Source of the DNA: a virus
Virus record (IMG/VR): IMGVR_UViG_3300045997_000244
Span: 1 to 33,135 of that record
DNA: 33,135 nt
Strand: one strand, 5' to 3'
Below, in pieces: positions 6,538-26,593 of this stretch (the stretch's first letter is position 1; every line of letters begins with the position of its first letter). A model generated the notes under the pieces. It was not told where the DNA came from and ran no database searches. It saw only the letters and a program-made list of their open reading frames with translations. The position numbers and the translations under genes were made by a program.

Positions 6538-6678
6538 ATGACAGACCTCATCATTATTTCACTTGTGTCCATTACCCTTGGTATTATCGGGTACATAGTT
6601 GGTTATTCCGAAGGTAAAATTAAGGGCACCGTGCAGACACTCAAACTTTTTAAAGACAAATTATGTTTAAAAAACTGA
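6538..6678 (+). CDS. Small single-pass membrane protein
   Basis: The ATG at 6538, four bases after the previous stop, gives 46 aa. Residues 4-22 form one transmembrane helix (LIIISLVSITLGIIGYIVG), and a short Lys-rich tail follows (GKIKGTVQTLKLFKDK). The next gene starts inside its last 16 bases. It may act with the large membrane protein that follows. Size alone would allow a small holin or antiholin, but the place in the early operon argues against this. Confidence 0.55.
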   Translation: MTDLIIISLVSITLGIIGYIVGYSEGKIKGTVQTLKLFKDKLCLKN

Positions 6679-10162: not shown

Positions 10163-10645
10163 TTATTTAAAAGACTTTGTTATTTCGGCAGTCATCATGC
10201 CGGTTATTTCCGTATCTAGTACCGCCGATTCACCAATAAACTGGCGCGCCGGTATGTTTTGATTTAGGGTTCTACCATACGCTTTTACCGTTGCTTTGCC
10301 GTTGCGGGTTCTGCGTTCGTGCATGCGAACCTTTTGTTTTACCATACCTTTGAACCCGTTGTTTTGCGTATGGGCATACGGAAGGTCAGTAAAGATCATT
10401 TCCTTGTTGTTTGTTACCCTCGCCTTTCGGATGTTCCGCTTTAACTTGCCTGTACTCTTACGGGGTTTTTTATTCCATCCTGGTTTATTTTTTGGCCATA
10501 GTGTTATGCCCGTACCTACCCAGTTTTTTTCGCGAAACCTCGACTTACTGAAATTAACAGCCAAAGTTGCGGCCTTATCAGGTAAGCGCCGTGTGGCCTT
10601 TTCAACCCTGTCGAGCAATTGGATAAATTCAATTGTTTCTTTCAT
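10163..10645 (-). CDS. Mu gpG-like virion morphogenesis/tail completion protein
   Basis: The 160-aa length is close to Mu gpG (about 156 aa). The N-terminus is helical (EFIQLLDRVEKATRRLPDKAA). The middle carries many Lys/Arg with TGKLKRNIRK and a YAHTQNNG segment. The C-terminus has the family hallmark IPARQFIGES followed by a helix. Proteins of this family (PF05069, P2 gpS-like) finish the tail or join head and tail. The ATG overlaps the tape-measure stop by one base, so the two are coupled. Confidence 0.75.
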   Translation of the reverse strand: MKETIEFIQLLDRVEKATRRLPDKAATLAVNFSKSRFREKNWVGTGITLWPKNKPGWNKKPRKSTGKLKRNIRKARVTNNKEMIFTDLPYAHTQNNGFKGMVKQKVRMHERRTRNGKATVKAYGRTLNQNIPARQFIGESAVLDTEITGMMTAEITKSFK

Positions 10646-12447
10646 TAGTAGGATAATTCGAGGTTACGGATTACACGTAAAAACATATCGGTAAAATAGG
10701 CCTCCATTTGCTTTTCGTCCATGCTCTCGGTATTTTGGTTCGAAATACTCATGCCCTTTACAAATGAATCAATGGAAACTGTAATGTTTCGTACCTGTTT
10801 GGCGGCTCCGGTAATACCATCGATGCTGGCATCCCCAACCGGTTTTGCAGCGGGGCCATTATCGACAGCTGCTTTTTTTGTGGTATCAGCAGCAAAAGGG
10901 TCTTCCTCCGGTTTTTTGTTTAATTCAAATTCATCGGCTTGTCTTTTTCTGATTTCGGCAAGATCGGGCATTTTGAATTGCTTAATACCCTGCCATGCAC
11001 CCTTGAAATCCATGGTTACAAATTTAAAAAGGATGCTGGTTACCTGCCCTATAATCTCCATAAGCCACGTGAATATTGATTTAACATTCCGGTACAGATT
11101 CTCAATACCTTTTCCCATGTCACCGCTTTTAAACAGATTCATCGCGGCACTTATGGCATTATAAAGCGCCACAAACGGTTTAATTAAAACAGTACTCACA
11201 ATCCATCCAATTCCGCTTAAAATGTCCCTGAAAAGCATTGAATTATTATATAAATCCTTAAAGGCGGCTATGGTGTTAAGCACCCATTGACCAACCTTTG
11301 CAAAAACCCCTAACAAAGCATCACCAACAGGTTTTACAACGTTGCCTTTGAACTCATTCATTACAATTTTCCAGCTATCCATGCCGGTTAATGAATTCTT
11401 GTAAGCTTCGTTGAGCTGGCCCTGGCTGTTGTTTGTAAAATCAGTAATTTCTTTGAGTTTACCCATGTCCTGAATCATGGACATGATTGCGCCTTTTGAC
11501 TCCATATCAATAATGTGGGCTTTATCAAGCTTAACCATTTTTTGCTGATCAGTAAGGCCATTCATTGACTTTTTTATCTGGCCAATGGTATCAATCATCG
11601 GCCTCATTTTGCCTTTATCATCAAATACATTTACGCCAATGCTTTTTAAGCCTTTAACAGTTTTAATGTCCGATAATGCTTTAACCAGGTTCATTACTCC
11701 GGTTGTTGCCTGTTCCGCACTTTGGCCCTGTGCGGTCAGATATGCCCATGCACCGGCAGTTTCACCAAGAGCAAAACCGGCACCCCTGGCAAGTGGTATA
11801 ATTTTTGGCAGGTATTGTGCAACGTCTTTAAATTCGGCGTTTCCCTTATTTAAGGTTGCAAAAAGCACATCGTAAACTTTGTTAATATCTTCACCACTCG
11901 AAGCCATTACACCTACACCGGCAGCGGCTACGGTTTCAATATCTGTAAAACCTGCTTTTGCAGCCCTCAGGGTTGGTTCCAATACTTTAAGAGATGTATT
12001 AACATCCAACCCCGCCGAAATAATACGGTTAAACGCCTGTGGAACTTCCTCCAGGGGTGCAACATTGCGGGTACCAATTTCGACTAACTTTTCTGAAAGT
12101 TTGTTTAATTTTGCCGGGGCTAATTGGGCAGTAACGTTAACTTTAGCCATATTAGACTCCCATTCTTCGCTCCATTTTGCAGCCTTGAAGCCCGCCACAC
12201 CCAACGCAATTACACCCGCAGTAACCATTGCATACGGATTTGCAATTAAACCAACTGCCCTGCCAAATCCCGGAAGTTCATCCTTCATGCCTTTAAAGGC
12301 TTCTACATGTGTATTTTTTAGTGATGAAAGTTTCCTTTTGATATCACTAACATTTGAATTTACGGTCTCCTTAGCTTTCTGGAATGAGGTTTTAAACCGT
12401 TCCTTCAGTTCCAAAATCAGGTTAACTTTTGCTTGTCCCTCAGTCAT
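10645..12447 (-). CDS. Tail tape measure protein
   Basis: This is a 600-aa protein. A charged coiled-coil start (KERFKTSFQKAKETVNSNVSDIKRKL) is followed by a hydrophobic Gly/Ala segment (LIANPYAMVTAGVIALGVAGFKAAKW). It then has the TP901-type core with repeated Ala/Gly helices (VAAAGVGVMASSGEDI, GETAGAWAYLTAQGQSAEQATTGVMNLVKALSD), and a second hydrophobic region near the middle (DILSGIGWIVSTVLIKPFVALYNAISAAM). Tape measures set tail length and pass into the host envelope. By the usual 1.5 angstrom per residue rule the tail would be near 90 nm. It lies on the opposite strand from sheath, tube and chaperone, which is unusual. Confidence 0.9.
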   Translation of the reverse strand: MTEGQAKVNLILELKERFKTSFQKAKETVNSNVSDIKRKLSSLKNTHVEAFKGMKDELPGFGRAVGLIANPYAMVTAGVIALGVAGFKAAKWSEEWESNMAKVNVTAQLAPAKLNKLSEKLVEIGTRNVAPLEEVPQAFNRIISAGLDVNTSLKVLEPTLRAAKAGFTDIETVAAAGVGVMASSGEDINKVYDVLFATLNKGNAEFKDVAQYLPKIIPLARGAGFALGETAGAWAYLTAQGQSAEQATTGVMNLVKALSDIKTVKGLKSIGVNVFDDKGKMRPMIDTIGQIKKSMNGLTDQQKMVKLDKAHIIDMESKGAIMSMIQDMGKLKEITDFTNNSQGQLNEAYKNSLTGMDSWKIVMNEFKGNVVKPVGDALLGVFAKVGQWVLNTIAAFKDLYNNSMLFRDILSGIGWIVSTVLIKPFVALYNAISAAMNLFKSGDMGKGIENLYRNVKSIFTWLMEIIGQVTSILFKFVTMDFKGAWQGIKQFKMPDLAEIRKRQADEFELNKKPEEDPFAADTTKKAAVDNGPAAKPVGDASIDGITGAAKQVRNITVSIDSFVKGMSISNQNTESMDEKQMEAYFTDMFLRVIRNLELSY

Positions 12448-12459
12448 GGTTTTGTTGTT

Positions 12460-13686
12460 TTAATTAGTTGGTGTGCCAACAACCGATTTTGTTTTCTTCC
12501 CGGTTATCTTCATGTTAAACCGCTCACCTACCCAGTTCTCATCGATCTCATAAAAATCGCTTGCCTCATATACAATTTTCCAATGGTCAGCGAGACTCAT
12601 TTCCTCTGTTCTATCGAAAGCAAATGTCTCATTGTCACCGAACGCAAAGCCCCAGTTTTTGAGTAGAGGAATAAGCTTTCCATTCACAAAAAATTCTATC
12701 ATTCGGCGGTCGCTTTCCGCTATTTTACCATCCAGTGTTCGCTCATGCACTTCGCTTTGGCTTCGGCTGCTACCATCGTCAAGAATCATGGTACCACCAA
12801 GTATACGTTTACTTATTTCGTAATTGGCCCGCTTTATTTGTTCGTCGAATATTTTATGCGGGTCACCTTTGGTACTACTATCATGAATTACAATTTTTGT
12901 GCCCTCCGGTAATACTGCCTGAGCTGCCTGGCCTAATTTCTTAAGCATTGCTTCAATACGATCGAGTTCCTTTCTGTCTCTTGTGGTTGTTTCGGCAGTA
13001 ACCAGGGGTATCCCAAACCGTTCGGCAAAATCCGCCCAGGCTTGCTGTGCGTTGCGTTTCCATATTAGTTGCGGAATAATATCGTTAAGGATGCCAAACA
13101 TCCGGTTATGCTTAATTTCGAGTACATTTTTGGCGAATACAGGATCGCTGTAATTTATTCCTTTCTCGCCGTTTGCTTCAAATAACAGTGTAGTTTTTTG
13201 CGGTACAATATTGCGTCTTGGCCACAATACCCAATTGTAAAAAACCGGATCGGCCAGCTCAATAACACTATAATACCTGAAAACGGCATCCAGTGCATTA
13301 TCCATTATATTATAGAACCATTCTGTTTTTAACCAGTCCGTTTTTTCGGGAACTTCTTTACCTGTGGTTTTATCCTTAATCAAAAAACGGGATGATAAAG
13401 TAGCGGCTTTCCTTAAGTCAATGGCTGCCATCAGGTGGCCGTCATTCATAAGGTTTTCCAATAAATCCTGATACAATGCCCAGTTAGGAGTTTCCGGATT
13501 TTCGGCAGCCGATATTGACTGGCGCCATTTTTGAATATCGGCCCGGCTCCTGTCTGTAAACTCCTTAGCCAGTTGGCTTATAATAACGCTGTCCTTTTTT
13601 TGGCCCGTGGGTGTTTTGGTTTCTGCTTTAAAGGCGCCAAAAAAGAAACTTTTTGTGGTGGTTATATAATCTTTTATAGGTTGCAT
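12460..13686 (-). CDS. Portal protein, Mu gp29-like (DUF935)
   Basis: This 408-aa protein has typical DUF935 portal blocks: LMNDGHLMAAIDLRKAATL, DPVFYNWVLWPRRNIVP, a FAERFGIPLVTAETTT segment, LGQAAQAVLPEGTKIVIHDSS and YEISKRILGGTMILDDGSSRSQSEVHERT. The portal dodecamer forms the head vertex through which TerL pumps DNA. It is somewhat shorter than Mu gp29 (about 512 aa). It lies between the gp36-like gene and the tape measure in a leftward operon. Confidence 0.9.
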   Translation of the reverse strand: MQPIKDYITTTKSFFFGAFKAETKTPTGQKKDSVIISQLAKEFTDRSRADIQKWRQSISAAENPETPNWALYQDLLENLMNDGHLMAAIDLRKAATLSSRFLIKDKTTGKEVPEKTDWLKTEWFYNIMDNALDAVFRYYSVIELADPVFYNWVLWPRRNIVPQKTTLLFEANGEKGINYSDPVFAKNVLEIKHNRMFGILNDIIPQLIWKRNAQQAWADFAERFGIPLVTAETTTRDRKELDRIEAMLKKLGQAAQAVLPEGTKIVIHDSSTKGDPHKIFDEQIKRANYEISKRILGGTMILDDGSSRSQSEVHERTLDGKIAESDRRMIEFFVNGKLIPLLKNWGFAFGDNETFAFDRTEEMSLADHWKIVYEASDFYEIDENWVGERFNMKITGKKTKSVVGTPTN

Positions 13687-19929: not shown

Positions 19930-21201
19930 ATGACCATACGTGGATTTTCAATAGAAAAAGGAACGGTAGGAGCCAGTACAAGCAACGCAGAGGATAATGT
20001 TTGCGGTTTGCTTGCCAATGGCGTTGCTGTTATCGCTGCCGGTTCAGTAACCGGTGTAGTTCTCAACACCGCTTATCTTATTACAAAGGTTAAGGATGCT
20101 GAGACAATGGGTATTAATGCCGCTTATGATACTACAAATCATACGCTTATTTATCGGCATATTACCGAATTCTACCGCATGGCTGGCGAGGGCACAAAAC
20201 TGTGGATTATGATTTGTGCAGCCGCAAAAACCATGAAGGAAATGATTGAAGAGAGCGGGAAATTATTAATTGTTGCCTCTTCAGGTTCTATTTATTACCT
20301 GACTGTTGGGTTTAATCCTCCCAATGCTTATGCACCTGTATTAGTTGATGGTCTCGAAACCATTGTACGCGAAGCCATTGCACCCGCGCAAGATTTGCAC
20401 GACTGGAGCTGGGACACTGACCGCCCGGTTAATATTATTCTAGAAGGTCGCGGTATTAACGGCACTGTAGTCAGTACATTGGATTTACGGAATATCCCTG
20501 TAGGGGCTGCCGTTTTAAAGGCTACTCATGTAACGCTTTGCGTCGGTCAGGATTGGGACTTTGCCGAAACCCTTGCAGGTGTTTATCAGAAATATGCTGA
20601 TATAGGTACCTTACTTGGAACCAAGGCTTCAATTTCTGTTAACCGTTCAGTTGCGGAAGTTGAAACACTGGATATTTCAAGCGCTACGAAAGCAAAGTGG
20701 TTAACCGCCGGTTTATCCAATCACAGTAAAATATCCGCTCTTGATGCCGATTTAGCCGATTACGATGACAAAGGCTACGTGTTTGGTATGAGTTATACTG
20801 GCATTTCCGGCTATCGATGGAATAACGACCATGTTTGTTCACCCGAAGAGGTAGACGATGACGGTTTTATGGCAATTTCAACTATTGGCCACGGTGCAAC
20901 TATTAACAAGGCAGCCCGCATGCTTCGTAAAAAACTTTTGCCGAAAGTTAAAAGTACGGTTCCCGTGGATGCTACTACCGGATTACTGCCAACGGGTGTT
21001 ATTAAATACTTCGAAGGTCTGGGCGATGTGGCTTTTAAAAACATGTCCCGCGATGGCGAAATATCCGATGGTAAAACAACGGTCGACCCTGCCTCTAACT
21101 TACTTTCAGGTGATAAACAACTGAATGTTTCTTTTGTAGTTGTGCCAACCGCAACAATAGGTAAAATTAAGGGTGTTATTAACCTCAAAACAACTTTATA
21201 A
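19930..21201 (+). CDS. Tail sheath protein (DUF2586-like)
   Basis: This is a 423-aa protein. The order and look fit the contractile sheath family DUF2586, seen in Mu-like phages of Bacteroidota. It has a Gly-rich start (GTVGASTSNAEDNVCGLLANGVAVIAAGSVTG), a KVKDAETMGINAAYD block, FYRMAGEGTKLWIMIC, and a C-terminal domain with TTVDPASNLLSGDKQLNVSFVVVPTATIGKIKGVINLKTTL, which is the inter-subunit strand-swapping region. It makes this a myovirus-type tail. The tube gene follows with a one-base overlap. Confidence 0.85.
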   Translation: MTIRGFSIEKGTVGASTSNAEDNVCGLLANGVAVIAAGSVTGVVLNTAYLITKVKDAETMGINAAYDTTNHTLIYRHITEFYRMAGEGTKLWIMICAAAKTMKEMIEESGKLLIVASSGSIYYLTVGFNPPNAYAPVLVDGLETIVREAIAPAQDLHDWSWDTDRPVNIILEGRGINGTVVSTLDLRNIPVGAAVLKATHVTLCVGQDWDFAETLAGVYQKYADIGTLLGTKASISVNRSVAEVETLDISSATKAKWLTAGLSNHSKISALDADLADYDDKGYVFGMSYTGISGYRWNNDHVCSPEEVDDDGFMAISTIGHGATINKAARMLRKKLLPKVKSTVPVDATTGLLPTGVIKYFEGLGDVAFKNMSRDGEISDGKTTVDPASNLLSGDKQLNVSFVVVPTATIGKIKGVINLKTTL

Positions 21202-21614
21202 TGATTTATAGAAACGGTAAGGCATACGACAGTGGTGATGTTGTCATCACTATGTTCGGCGGTATCGATTACGAAGTAACCGAAATTACCTACGGAACAG
21301 AACAGGAGCATCAGGCTAATCACAGTCTTGGTTCAAACAAGCAATCTTCTTTCAGCATGGGTAAGATTACCCAGACCGGTAGCATTACGATCAGGCTGGC
21401 ATCTGCCGGAGCAATCGAAAAAGCTGTTGGTGGTAATCTTCTTAATGTAAAACCTTTCGATATCAATGTTACCTTTTTGAATGAGGACAATGATATCATT
21501 AACGACACCATTACGGCTAAGTTTCAAAACCAAGGGCGTGAGGTTGGTGGCGATATGGACTTGAAAAAGCAATACACGCTTTTTGTTCTTGACATACAAT
21601 ATAATAACGCTTAA
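21201..21614 (+). CDS. Tail tube protein
   Basis: This 137-aa beta-rich protein (ITMFGGIDYEVTEITYGTEQEHQ, FSMGKITQTGSITIRLASAGAIEKAVGG, FDINVTFLNED, ITAKFQNQGREVGG) has the size and beta-sandwich pattern of inner tube proteins such as Mu gpM (about 118 aa). It lies between the sheath and the tail chaperone, the canonical position. Tube hexamers stack along the tape measure. Confidence 0.8.
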   Translation: MIYRNGKAYDSGDVVITMFGGIDYEVTEITYGTEQEHQANHSLGSNKQSSFSMGKITQTGSITIRLASAGAIEKAVGGNLLNVKPFDINVTFLNEDNDIINDTITAKFQNQGREVGGDMDLKKQYTLFVLDIQYNNA

Positions 21615-21620
21615 TCAATT

Positions 21621-21974
21621 ATGAAAAATACTAAAGAAAGTGAAGTTCAATTGCCCGATGGAGTGACGCCCGAAATGATCAAAGCATGGAAGGAACGTTA
21701 TGGAGAGCAAAAGGTAAAACTCGCGCTTTTACCAAAGGACGATGCAGCTGATGAGTTTCTACAGGTAATTGTAAGGGTACCCGACCGGAAAGCACAGGCA
21801 GAGTTTGAAAAATGGATAGACAAAAGCCCTGATAAGGCTAAAGATATCCTTATCAATGCTTGTTTGCTTACCAACAAGGATGTGGTAAAAGCTGACGATG
21901 ACCTTTACTTAGGTGCATTCGATGCAATTGCCAAGCTGTTACCTATAAGGACGGCAATCATAAAAAACTTATAG
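21621..21974 (+). CDS. Tail assembly chaperone, short (zero-frame) product
   Basis: This 117-aa helical acidic protein (LPDGVTPEMIKAWKERYGEQKVKLALLPKD, then VIVRVPDRKAQAEFEKWIDKSPDKAKDILINACL) matches Bacteroidota tail chaperones placed after the tube gene. In lambda (gpG/gpGT) and Mu (gp41 region) such proteins coat the tape measure. The zero frame stops at 21972-21974, five codons after the start of a canonical -1 slippery site. The short product should be the major form. Confidence 0.75.
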   Translation: MKNTKESEVQLPDGVTPEMIKAWKERYGEQKVKLALLPKDDAADEFLQVIVRVPDRKAQAEFEKWIDKSPDKAKDILINACLLTNKDVVKADDDLYLGAFDAIAKLLPIRTAIIKNL

Positions 21975-22180
21975 ACGGCTACCCGGGCATTGACCTGGTT
22001 AATGACTCGGATAGCCGTCAAAGAGAAACATCCAACTTTATCCGGCGGGCAGATGCACTCATAAGTTTCTTTTTGCACATACCCTTCCCGGAGGAGTTGG
22101 ATGACGAAAAATGGATGGAAAAATACAGGCAGGTCGAATGGCTTGCCGATAAAGGTTTACTAGGGGTGAAAATAAAATGA
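21621..22180 (+). CDS. Tail assembly chaperone, -1 frameshift extended product
   Basis: A -1 shift on AAAAAAC at 21962-21968 continues with codon CTT at 21968 and stays open to TGA at 22178-22180. This adds 70 residues (start LIDGYPGIDLVNDS, end LADKGLLGVKIK) to 116 upstream residues, giving 186 aa. The extension ends in an ATGA overlap with the next gene, which shows this frame is genuine coding sequence. It lacks its own good start. In lambda the T extension binds the tube protein while the common part binds the tape measure. Confidence 0.85.
21962..22019 (+). promoter_or_regulatory. -1 programmed ribosomal frameshift signal
   Basis: Slippery heptamer A AAA AAC at 21962-21968 is in the correct zero-frame phase (ATA AAA AAC). 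A 5-base spacer TTATA follows. Then GACGGCTA (21974-21981) pairs with TAGCCGTC (22012-22019), 8 bp perfect. After one C/A mismatch, CCGGG (21983-21987) pairs with CTCGG (22006-22010) with one G-U. The loop is about 18 bases. Confidence 0.88.
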
Positions 22181-22770
22181 GTAGAATTACAATAAACCAA
22201 ATAATAGCACGATATGCAGCCGGTTTCGGTTACGTTGCCGCCAATGCAGTTGTGATGGGTTTCAAACCCTGGGAAAATGTAAACATACCCATCTACAAAT
22301 CCGACGATTCCAACTTTGCCAATGTTACCTTCAAAAACCAAAAGAGCGGGAATACCTACTCTTTTGGTTTACCATTTGGCTATAGTAGTGAATATATGGC
22401 GCCTCCCATAATGGTAACTTTCAGCCGGGAAAAAAATGTTGTACGCACTCCAATTGATCGCAGCGAGGTAGAAGTAATAGAATACTTCGGTCTAAAGCCT
22501 TATGATATAAAAATACAGGGTATTGTAATTGATAACGAGGAGCATCTTTACCCGCAGACTTTAAGCCGGAAAATAAGTGAAATGTTTGCCGAATCTGGAA
22601 CCTTCCAGGTGTCGGGTGACTTATTCGCCGATGAGGGGATCACCGAAATTTTCTTTGTTGGTGGTTTTGAAAAAAGCTTTGTGGAAGGTTATGCCGATAC
22701 CATTAAGTTTTCAATTAGCGCCATAAGCACCATGCCGGTTGAAGTACGTGTAACTAACAACAAAAGTTAA
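22177..22770 (+). CDS. Phage tail/baseplate protein (DUF6046-like)
   Basis: This 197-aa protein has a beta-rich middle (SGNTYSFGLPFGYSSEYMAPPIMVTFSREKNVV) and a typical VIEYFGLKPYDIKIQGIVID segment, then KISEMFAESGTFQVSGDLFADEGITEIFFV. This resembles the DUF6046 proteins of Bacteroides phages, found between the tail chaperone and hub. The start is coupled by ATGA to the frameshifted chaperone. In other phages this slot follows the tape measure and holds a LysM-like or initiator protein that joins tube and hub. Confidence 0.65.
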   Translation: MSRITINQIIARYAAGFGYVAANAVVMGFKPWENVNIPIYKSDDSNFANVTFKNQKSGNTYSFGLPFGYSSEYMAPPIMVTFSREKNVVRTPIDRSEVEVIEYFGLKPYDIKIQGIVIDNEEHLYPQTLSRKISEMFAESGTFQVSGDLFADEGITEIFFVGGFEKSFVEGYADTIKFSISAISTMPVEVRVTNNKS

Positions 22771-25461: not shown

Positions 25462-26045
25462 AAATCTGGATTATTGCAATAGTTACACTTACTATAATGG
25501 CAATAGCCGGATTTGCCGGGTATACGATAGCCAATAAAAAATATTCTGCCAGGTTGGATAGGGCACAAACTAATTTTAACTCAATGGTTTTGGGTATTCG
25601 TTATTCATTGGACTCGATGCGAACCGACACAAGAGCCATGAAAATGACTCAGTACGAATTAAAACAAAGTTTCCCGGGATTCAAGGAGGAACTTAAACAG
25701 GAATTTGGAATTGAACTCAGGCGCGCCAAATTCCTGATGAACACACAAACGGAATATAACAAGGAATTTAAGGTGTTTGTAAGAGATTCATTTCAAAGCA
25801 AAGAAGCTGAATACGCTATCTACCAAGATAAATGGAATTCTTTTAAATGGTTAAAACCAATTGGCGCCGATACAGCAACCGTAAACATTCATATTAAAGA
25901 TAGTGCGTTTGCAGTACTTCACAGGGTGCCGCGCTCATTTTCGGAGTGGTGGCACGGTCAACCTAAGAAATATGATTTAACGATTAAGAACTATAACCCG
26001 AATTCAATAATCAGTTACCAGAGACTTATTCAATTAACGCGTTAA
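25458..26045 (+). CDS. Spanin-like inner-membrane protein (DUF6549-like)
   Basis: This 195-aa protein has an N-terminal membrane anchor at 3-24 (IWIIAIVTLTIMAIAGFAGYTI), then a charged periplasmic part (DRAQTNFNSM, LKQEFGIELRRAKFLMNTQ) and a beta-type C-terminus (DTATVNIHIKDSAFAVLH, WWHGQPKKYDLTIKNYNPN). Proteins of this look follow holins in Bacteroidota phages (DUF6549). An i-spanin role in outer-membrane disruption fits the lysis cassette but is inferred from position. No separate outer-membrane partner or nested lipoprotein frame was found. Confidence 0.6.
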   Translation: MKIWIIAIVTLTIMAIAGFAGYTIANKKYSARLDRAQTNFNSMVLGIRYSLDSMRTDTRAMKMTQYELKQSFPGFKEELKQEFGIELRRAKFLMNTQTEYNKEFKVFVRDSFQSKEAEYAIYQDKWNSFKWLKPIGADTATVNIHIKDSAFAVLHRVPRSFSEWWHGQPKKYDLTIKNYNPNSIISYQRLIQLTR

Positions 26046-26593
26046 TGAGTGAATTAATATCATACGAAGTAATAGTACAACGAGATCAAAGCTTGTGGGA
26101 CATAGCCATAGTGGAATATGGTTCCATTGAAGGGCTTTTTTCGTTAATTACTTTGAATGGGTTTGACTCATTGGATCAAGTTCCTGATCCCGGGGAAAAG
26201 ATCATTATTGATTCATCGCTGGTTTTTAAAAATAAGTTCGAAGACAGGAAAGTAACTGAGCAAAAGGTTACGAACTATGATGCTATTGTGCAACATGACC
26301 AAAGTATTTGGGACTTGGCAATACAGGAATATGGCTCTATTGAACAAATGTTTATCATGGTAAGCGATAATAAACTATTAAGCAGCCTGGATGTAATTCC
26401 AACACCTGGTGATAAGCTTTCAATACGCACTGATTTTGACGGTGATTACGCACTGATGAATTATTTTAGAAATAAACGCCAGGTGGCAACCAATGCCATT
26501 ATTGTTGATTTAAATGGTGTTGTAGTTACCGGAGTTTGGAGGGATGACGCATTGTGGGGAGACAATGCACCCTGGAGAGATAATCCAATTTAA
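26045..26593 (+). CDS. Tail protein with two LysM-like repeats and a Trp/Asp C-terminal tag
   Basis: In this 182-aa protein, residues 7-55 and 78-128 are tandem copies of a LysM-like module (IVQRDQSLWDIAIVEYGSIEG and IVQHDQSIWDLAIQEYGSIEQ, both ending in a P.PG.K.II strand). Similar modules (P2 gpX-like) join hub and tube. Residues 130-160 link to a C-terminal tag, VWRDDALWGDNAPWRDNPI, which is nearly repeated at the end of the next protein. The start overlaps the spanin-like stop by one base. It returns the operon from lysis to tail assembly. Confidence 0.7.
   Translation: MSELISYEVIVQRDQSLWDIAIVEYGSIEGLFSLITLNGFDSLDQVPDPGEKIIIDSSLVFKNKFEDRKVTEQKVTNYDAIVQHDQSIWDLAIQEYGSIEQMFIMVSDNKLLSSLDVIPTPGDKLSIRTDFDGDYALMNYFRNKRQVATNAIIVDLNGVVVTGVWRDDALWGDNAPWRDNPI

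Follow-up and report, generated by a model that had tools for sequence, protein, structure and literature searches.

A Probable Programmed −1 Frameshift in the Tail Assembly Chaperone of Bacteroidota Viruses With a Remote Tape Measure Gene

The chaperone locus and its neighborhood

The stretch of DNA analyzed here in full (hereafter the window; 33,135 nucleotides, IMG/VR record IMGVR_UViG_3300045997_000244) comes from a virus of Bacteroidota bacteria. It has protein similarity to, and a gene order in common with, Flavobacterium phage fF4, which is classed as Winoviridae. On the plus strand, an open reading frame at 21621–21974 encodes a 117-aa product that, from the frame and its predicted fold, we describe as the short, G-like form of a putative tail assembly chaperone. 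It closes at a TAG stop (21972–21974, plus strand), reached through the zero-frame codons AAA AAC TTA TAG, and the slippery heptamer A_AAA_AAC (21962–21968, plus strand) lies in phase with it, ending three nucleotides before the stop. The heptamer is followed by the 5-nt spacer TTATA (21969–21973, plus strand), delimited by the sequence and the fold. The −1 frame continues by translation from 21968 to 22180 (plus strand) as a T-like extension of 70 codons plus TGA, giving a frameshift fusion of 186 aa, and its TGA (22178–22180) overlaps the ATG of the next gene at 22177 as ATGA (22177–22180). The original prediction had described the in-phase heptamer, the five-base spacer and the 70-codon open frame running into the ATGA overlap, and all three were confirmed.

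Directly behind the spacer, a hairpin is predicted whose outer stem pairs 21974–21981 with 22012–22019 (8 bp, plus strand; fold and covariation) and whose inner helix occupies 21983–22010 (plus strand; fold). The perfect 8-bp stem had been anticipated and stands; the inner stem is likewise present, but it comprises 12 bp (5+7 around a one-base bulge, with a 3-nt loop at 21995–21997) rather than the 5 bp first proposed. The 62-nt hairpin stretch folds with a minimum free energy of −29.5 kcal/mol (z −5.78), a stability equaled by 0 of 200 shuffles, and none of 1230 coding 60-nt segments of the window folds as well as −29.5. Rfam returned no match at the hairpin and a single chance match elsewhere (E 0.91).

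Chance expectation was assessed by scanning window ORFs of at least 60 aa for in-phase XXXYYYZ heptamers with Y = A or T. This gave 122 heptamers, eight of them with a −1 extension of at least 40 codons past the stop; only the chaperone site (1/122) combined a long −1 extension with a fold of −20 or lower. Codon use in the window includes 352 AAA among 501 lysine codons and 168 AAC among 428 asparagine codons. In-phase AAAAAAC and TTTAAAA heptamers also occur at 6669 and 25177 (plus strand), each with a stop close behind and a long −1 extension; both are without a stem, and start codons of the next ORF are nearby.

Upstream of the chaperone lies a DUF2586 sheath gene and then, immediately before the chaperone, a tail tube gene (21201–21614, plus strand), so assigned from its position after the sheath and a match to a tail protein family (phrog_4579, E 1.2e-7), although its better match is to phrog_9206, labeled major head protein. 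The order of tube then chaperone holds for the window and for every mapped relative where both were found. The tape measure's place after the chaperone is taken by a DUF6046 gene (22177–22770, plus strand; PF19512, E 2e-29), which is the same chaperone neighbor in relatives, and a baseplate hub gene also lies downstream. The 600-aa tape measure protein (TMP) is encoded at 10645–12447 on the minus strand, as identified by PF10145 (E 2.7e-32), 19 PHROGs tape measure families and synteny. It adjoins a Mu-type portal gene (12460–13686, minus strand; PF06074, E 1.3e-65) and a gpG-like virion morphogenesis or neck gene (10163–10645, minus strand; phrog_26, tail completion or Neck1, E 5.8e-11). A distance of 9,515 nt separates the TMP start from the heptamer, in agreement with the original placement some 9.5 kb away on the other strand. 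The usual recognition mark of such chaperones, a TMP directly or one gene after them, is not present in the window; we regard this mark as customary and not as part of the definition. Elsewhere in the window, a 182-aa protein (26045–26593) looks, on visual inspection of its translation, like a doubled LysM-type domain: its halves resemble each other, and each begins with a QxDQSxWD-like sequence.

AlphaFold2 models of both parts were built on 22 alignment rows, giving a pLDDT of 90 for the N part and a two-helix fold with a pLDDT of 82 for the C part. Against the PDB, the N model was closest to 3fgx (Z 8.9), HK97 gp13 (2ob9, Z 6.2) and YqbN (3klu, Z 5.7), with the next row at Z 2.6. The best Foldseek E-value was only 2.3e-3, so we regard the fold match as one of moderate strength. 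The N-part sequence profile also matches 3fgx (E 3e-4), and the zero-frame product matches phrog_19076 (E 6e-8), a family labeled as of unknown function. The HK97 gp13 entry itself carries the name tail assembly chaperone, and 3fgx and YqbN are presumably tail chaperones too. The models thus suggest, with moderate confidence, that the zero-frame product has a tail-chaperone fold. At an E-value of 0.01, none of the 22 N parts matched a Pfam tail assembly chaperone family, the sole stray Pfam match among them being that of one member to PF22055. The C part had no match in PHROGs, and neither Pfam nor PHROGs gave a chaperone name to either part.

Frame, heptamer and hairpin among relatives

A tblastn search of phage records for relatives yielded Flavobacterium phage fF4 together with two contigs of faecal phages; 17 further matches, to Prochlorococcus phages, were weak (E 0.07–0.09) and were left unused. 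More loci came from scans of viral contigs, from one scan of genome contigs, and from profile searching within a single class (395 genomes, 15 with a match). After removal of 12 duplicates of other loci or of the window (L002, L031–L039, L042, L043), the final set comprised 47 distinct loci, the window included. One of these (L055) had no C-part match by profile and was excluded, leaving 46. Near-identical rows (L013–L015, L019/L020, L027–L029, L011/L012, L003/L022) are counted singly within the 46, so that independent events are fewer than this number.

Profiles of the N and C parts place the latter in frame −1 relative to the former, and never in frame 0 or +1, at all 46 of these loci; alignment of the relatives indicates that the C part is conserved as a protein. 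A canonical heptamer lies in phase inside the frame overlap at 35 of the 46 loci, as A6C (16, window included), A6G (10), GGGAAAG (4), A7 (3) or A6T (2). It is absent in the remaining 11 (L005, L019, L020, L026, L027–L029, L044, L047, L054, L057). Loss of the heptamer or stem in close homologues had been named at the outset as evidence against frameshifting; within the window's own 21-row clade, the heptamer is kept except in L019 and L020, two contigs identical there, which have neither heptamer nor stem (L019, z +0.65; L020 was not folded). The frame overlap in these two is only 7 nt (L019 10291–10300; L020 2401–2410), and the candidate readings are a contig error and slippage at T_TTG ahead of the stop. 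A common GGAAAAG, read as GAA AAG in the zero frame and near the stop, is found in five of the loci without a canonical heptamer (L005, L027–L029, L047), where single-tRNA slippage on A_AAG may perhaps occur.

Thirteen A6C sequences were aligned. Covariation was assessed on the eight without gaps, and the gapped ones (L006, L013, L015, L017, L018) were folded singly. RNAalifold recovered the same helix from the eight; in 8 of its 11 pairs, both partners differ in at least one sequence. Across a 13-pair helix in the same eight sequences, 9 of 13 pairs were changed on both sides, 78.8% of cells were paired and the covariation score was 0.385; none of 500 shuffles reached any of five measures, and sliding the helix by one to three columns reduced paired cells to 26–50%. 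The covarying stem changes that the original prediction proposed to look for are therefore found. The five relatives with indels carry a stem at nearly the same place in different letters (z −4.68 in L006, −1.74 in L013, −2.74 in L015, −5.53 in L017 and −2.75 in L018).

Single-sequence folding covered 34 of the 46 loci (L003, L012, L014, L020, L028, L029, L044, L050, L052, L054, L056 and L057 were not folded). A z below −2.5 was obtained for 11 of 13 folded A6C sequences, the weak folds being L010 (z −1.05) and L013, as compared to 4 of 21 other folded sequences, an association of hairpin with heptamer class (Fisher p 3e-4) that ignores kinship. A6C is a weaker slip site than A6G in Escherichia coli. 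A greater need for the hairpin at A6C sites would fit this pattern, again with kinship ignored.

Frameshifting and alternative readings

Given these results, a programmed −1 frameshift in a lambda-like tail assembly chaperone that would serve its tape measure in trans is very probably the best explanation of the locus. This reading is supported by the conserved frame, the covarying stem, the lack of separate starts and the predicted chaperone fold. We infer slippage in the cell, its rate and the protein contacts along the following lines. Most ribosomes would stop at TAG 21972 and release the 117-aa chaperone, while a minority, paused by the hairpin (21974–22019) when AAA AAC occupies the P and A sites, would slip back one base and produce the 186-aa fusion. 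By analogy with gpG and gpGT of lambda, many short and few fused copies would coat the tape measure, and the extension would recruit tube subunits. Because the tape measure is encoded in a separate operon that runs divergently, the chaperones would have to find it in trans.

The second part could instead be a separate gene, translated from a start of its own or by re-initiation behind the zero-frame stop, with a hairpin that is incidental or a regulator. The depositors of fF4 and of the Pippivirus isolates annotated it in this way, as a separate hypothetical CDS, and in 5 of the 46 loci a GTG or TTG stands near the beginning of the second frame. Against this, 41 of 46 loci have no ATG, GTG or TTG ahead of the conserved C part, and none of the 46 has an ATG there; the separate start in all relatives that the original prediction had named as counterevidence is thus not found. 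In the window, the first candidate starts (TTG 22073, TTG 22097 and ATG 22115) lie inside the conserved C part and would truncate it. A separate gene would also leave unexplained the in-phase heptamer in 35 of 46 loci and the stem just behind it. We consider this reading improbable and, with no starts in 41 of 46 loci, rejected it.

Slippage might alternatively be transcriptional, with RNA polymerase rather than the ribosome slipping on the A run, and many relatives do carry runs of A6 or A7 at the site. Yet four relatives carry GGGAAAG at the same place, which makes polymerase slippage unlikely, and the hairpin covaries at ribosomal spacing; a run of six A is, moreover, short for polymerase slippage. 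We hold this reading to be even less probable than a separate gene. An assembly error or pseudogene, in which a one-base indel splits a single gene, merits the least credence of all: many relatives are metagenomic contigs, but all 46 loci, including the isolate fF4, are split in the same direction, as are two Pippivirus isolates. We rejected it on the strength of this 46/46 conservation.

Tape measure placement and known systems

More unusual than the frameshift is the position of the tape measure. The loci fall into two layouts. Remote layout is defined by a DUF6046-sized gene directly after the fusion (23 loci), adjacent layout by a longer ORF or gap between the fusion and that gene (22 loci). 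Two loci (L026, L046) are outside both, and the contig of L046 ends at the chaperone. In the remote group, the L011 contig ends inside the DUF6046-sized gene, and L056 is placed by DUF6046 adjacency only; a TMP was looked for in the L056 genome and none was found. The TMP is on the opposite strand at all 13 remote-layout loci with a PF10145 match (window, L001, L003, L006, L008, L011, L014, L017, L019, L021–L023, L044; that of L019 falls below the family cut-off). At all 10 adjacent-layout loci with a match (L004, L025, L027–L029, L047, L048, L053, L055, L058), it immediately follows the chaperone and shares its strand. By phmmer gene order, each of the 10 mapped remote-layout records that had a TMP match carries the TMP between portal and gpG, and an eleventh mapped record, L060, had no TMP match. 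A portal was located in 18 of 22 records; in 17 of them (all but L026), it is opposite in strand to the chaperone; thus, the head-block inversion is common to both layouts and the place of the TMP alone differs. The remote tape measure is real and common to a whole clade. As originally proposed, the frameshift is kept despite it: the −1 relation is present in both layouts and so does not depend on an adjacent tape measure. One Marinifilaceae MAG (G002) contains both a remote-layout copy (L006/L074) and an adjacent-layout copy (L058/L073).

The chaperone tree, which is unrooted, unites 21 remote-layout rows in a single group (100/99) that excludes L044 and L056; the layouts require three changes on this tree, and L056 is a long branch. 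Polarity consequently rests on the colinear relatives and on the lambda and Mu order, from which we infer that the colinear order came first and that the TMP moved once or a few times while the frameshift stayed. TMPs at the portal–TMP–gpG site (window 10645–12447, L059–L074) form two lineages, a grouping at odds with the chaperone tree; the alignment spans the first 450 aa only and includes distant rows. For instance, the L023 chaperone groups with fF4 and its TMP with L001/L017/L006. It is as if tape measures had been exchanged between lineages.

We tentatively raise the possibility that the TMP left the tail operon for the divergent head operon, that chaperone and TMP became separately exchangeable, and that strong selection retained the frameshift, with a strengthened hairpin, because assembly in trans depends on the G:GT ratio independently of cis proximity or co-translation with the TMP. 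If so, swapping of the TMP, and with it of tail length, against one chaperone would be a normal evolutionary mode here. The persistence of the frameshift after the TMP moved operon and strand suggests that its value lies in the ratio of the chaperone forms and not in adjacency. The two layouts amount to a natural experiment on the frameshift with and without an adjacent tape measure, and the site is a covariation-supported case of hairpin-aided A_AAA_AAC slippage in Bacteroidota phages.

A search just upstream of the tape measure, the usual way to find chaperone frameshifts, misses the whole clade described here. According to earlier reports, frameshifting sits between the major tail and tape measure genes (PMC2628397), such chaperone genes are recognized by their place ahead of the tape measure, at times with one gene in between (PMC2147016), Hardycor1 keeps the usual gene order (PMC7911831), and the authors of the Mu-like phage KS10 found no frameshift site (PMC2628397). 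Subscription literature aside, we found no published case, for these phages, of a chaperone frameshift whose tape measure is remote, including in papers on Winoviridae and their kin (PMC10367356, PMC8776804).

Among isolates, phage fF4 (MN850656.1, Winoviridae) has the same layout as the window, with protease to hub on one strand and terminase–portal–TMP–gpG on the other. Its second part is likewise in the −1 frame, with about 49% identity over 74% of the fusion, although its heptamer is GGGAAAG without a stable stem (L022, identical downstream sequence, z +1.95); its record (L003 23388–23923) annotates the chaperone halves as two hypothetical proteins. The Winoviridae isolates Pippivirus pippi8-1 and lotta8-1, outside the set of 46, read by eye ATA AAA AAG ATA TAA with a −1 second part. 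They share with the window a chaperone with an in-phase heptamer, here A_AAA_AAG, followed by an approximately 200-aa structural protein and the hub gene in the same order. They differ in that the head block is colinear and a 542-aa-class ORF, gp40, directly follows the chaperone; by place and length, gp40 is probably the tape measure. The records of both isolates annotate the second part as a protein of its own, and that of pippi8-1 (L075 14596–15320) lists the chaperone halves as separate hypothetical proteins.

The frameshift mechanism is of a known kind, and the unlinked tape measure is the variant part. HK97 gp13 (2OB9), YqbN (3KLU) and RBSTP2171 (3FGX) resemble the predicted fold of the zero-frame product at 9–15% identity. 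The genome shares with Mu (gp41 region) a Mu-type portal, the order of sheath, tube and chaperone, and kinship with transposable phages. In Mu, the sheath, tube and chaperone genes are followed by the tape measure directly after the chaperone pair, unlike in the window. The original prediction had invoked both lambda and Mu as precedents; the former shifts by −1, but PMC5009743 describes −2 frameshifting in Mu, which leaves lambda as the closer precedent. According to the same source, lambda gpG and gpGT (through its G portion) attach to the tape measure, T attaches to the tube protein, and the gpG:gpGT molar ratio is about 30:1 (PMC5009743). As in gpG/gpGT, short and fused products would arise from a −1 shift close to the end of a small gene that lies after the major tail gene. 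The lambda heptamer, G_GGA_AAG, is the same as the GGGAAAG of fF4 and three relatives. The window differs from lambda in its A_AAA_AAC with a strong covarying hairpin, and in a tape measure that lies about 9.5 kb away on the opposite strand instead of downstream.
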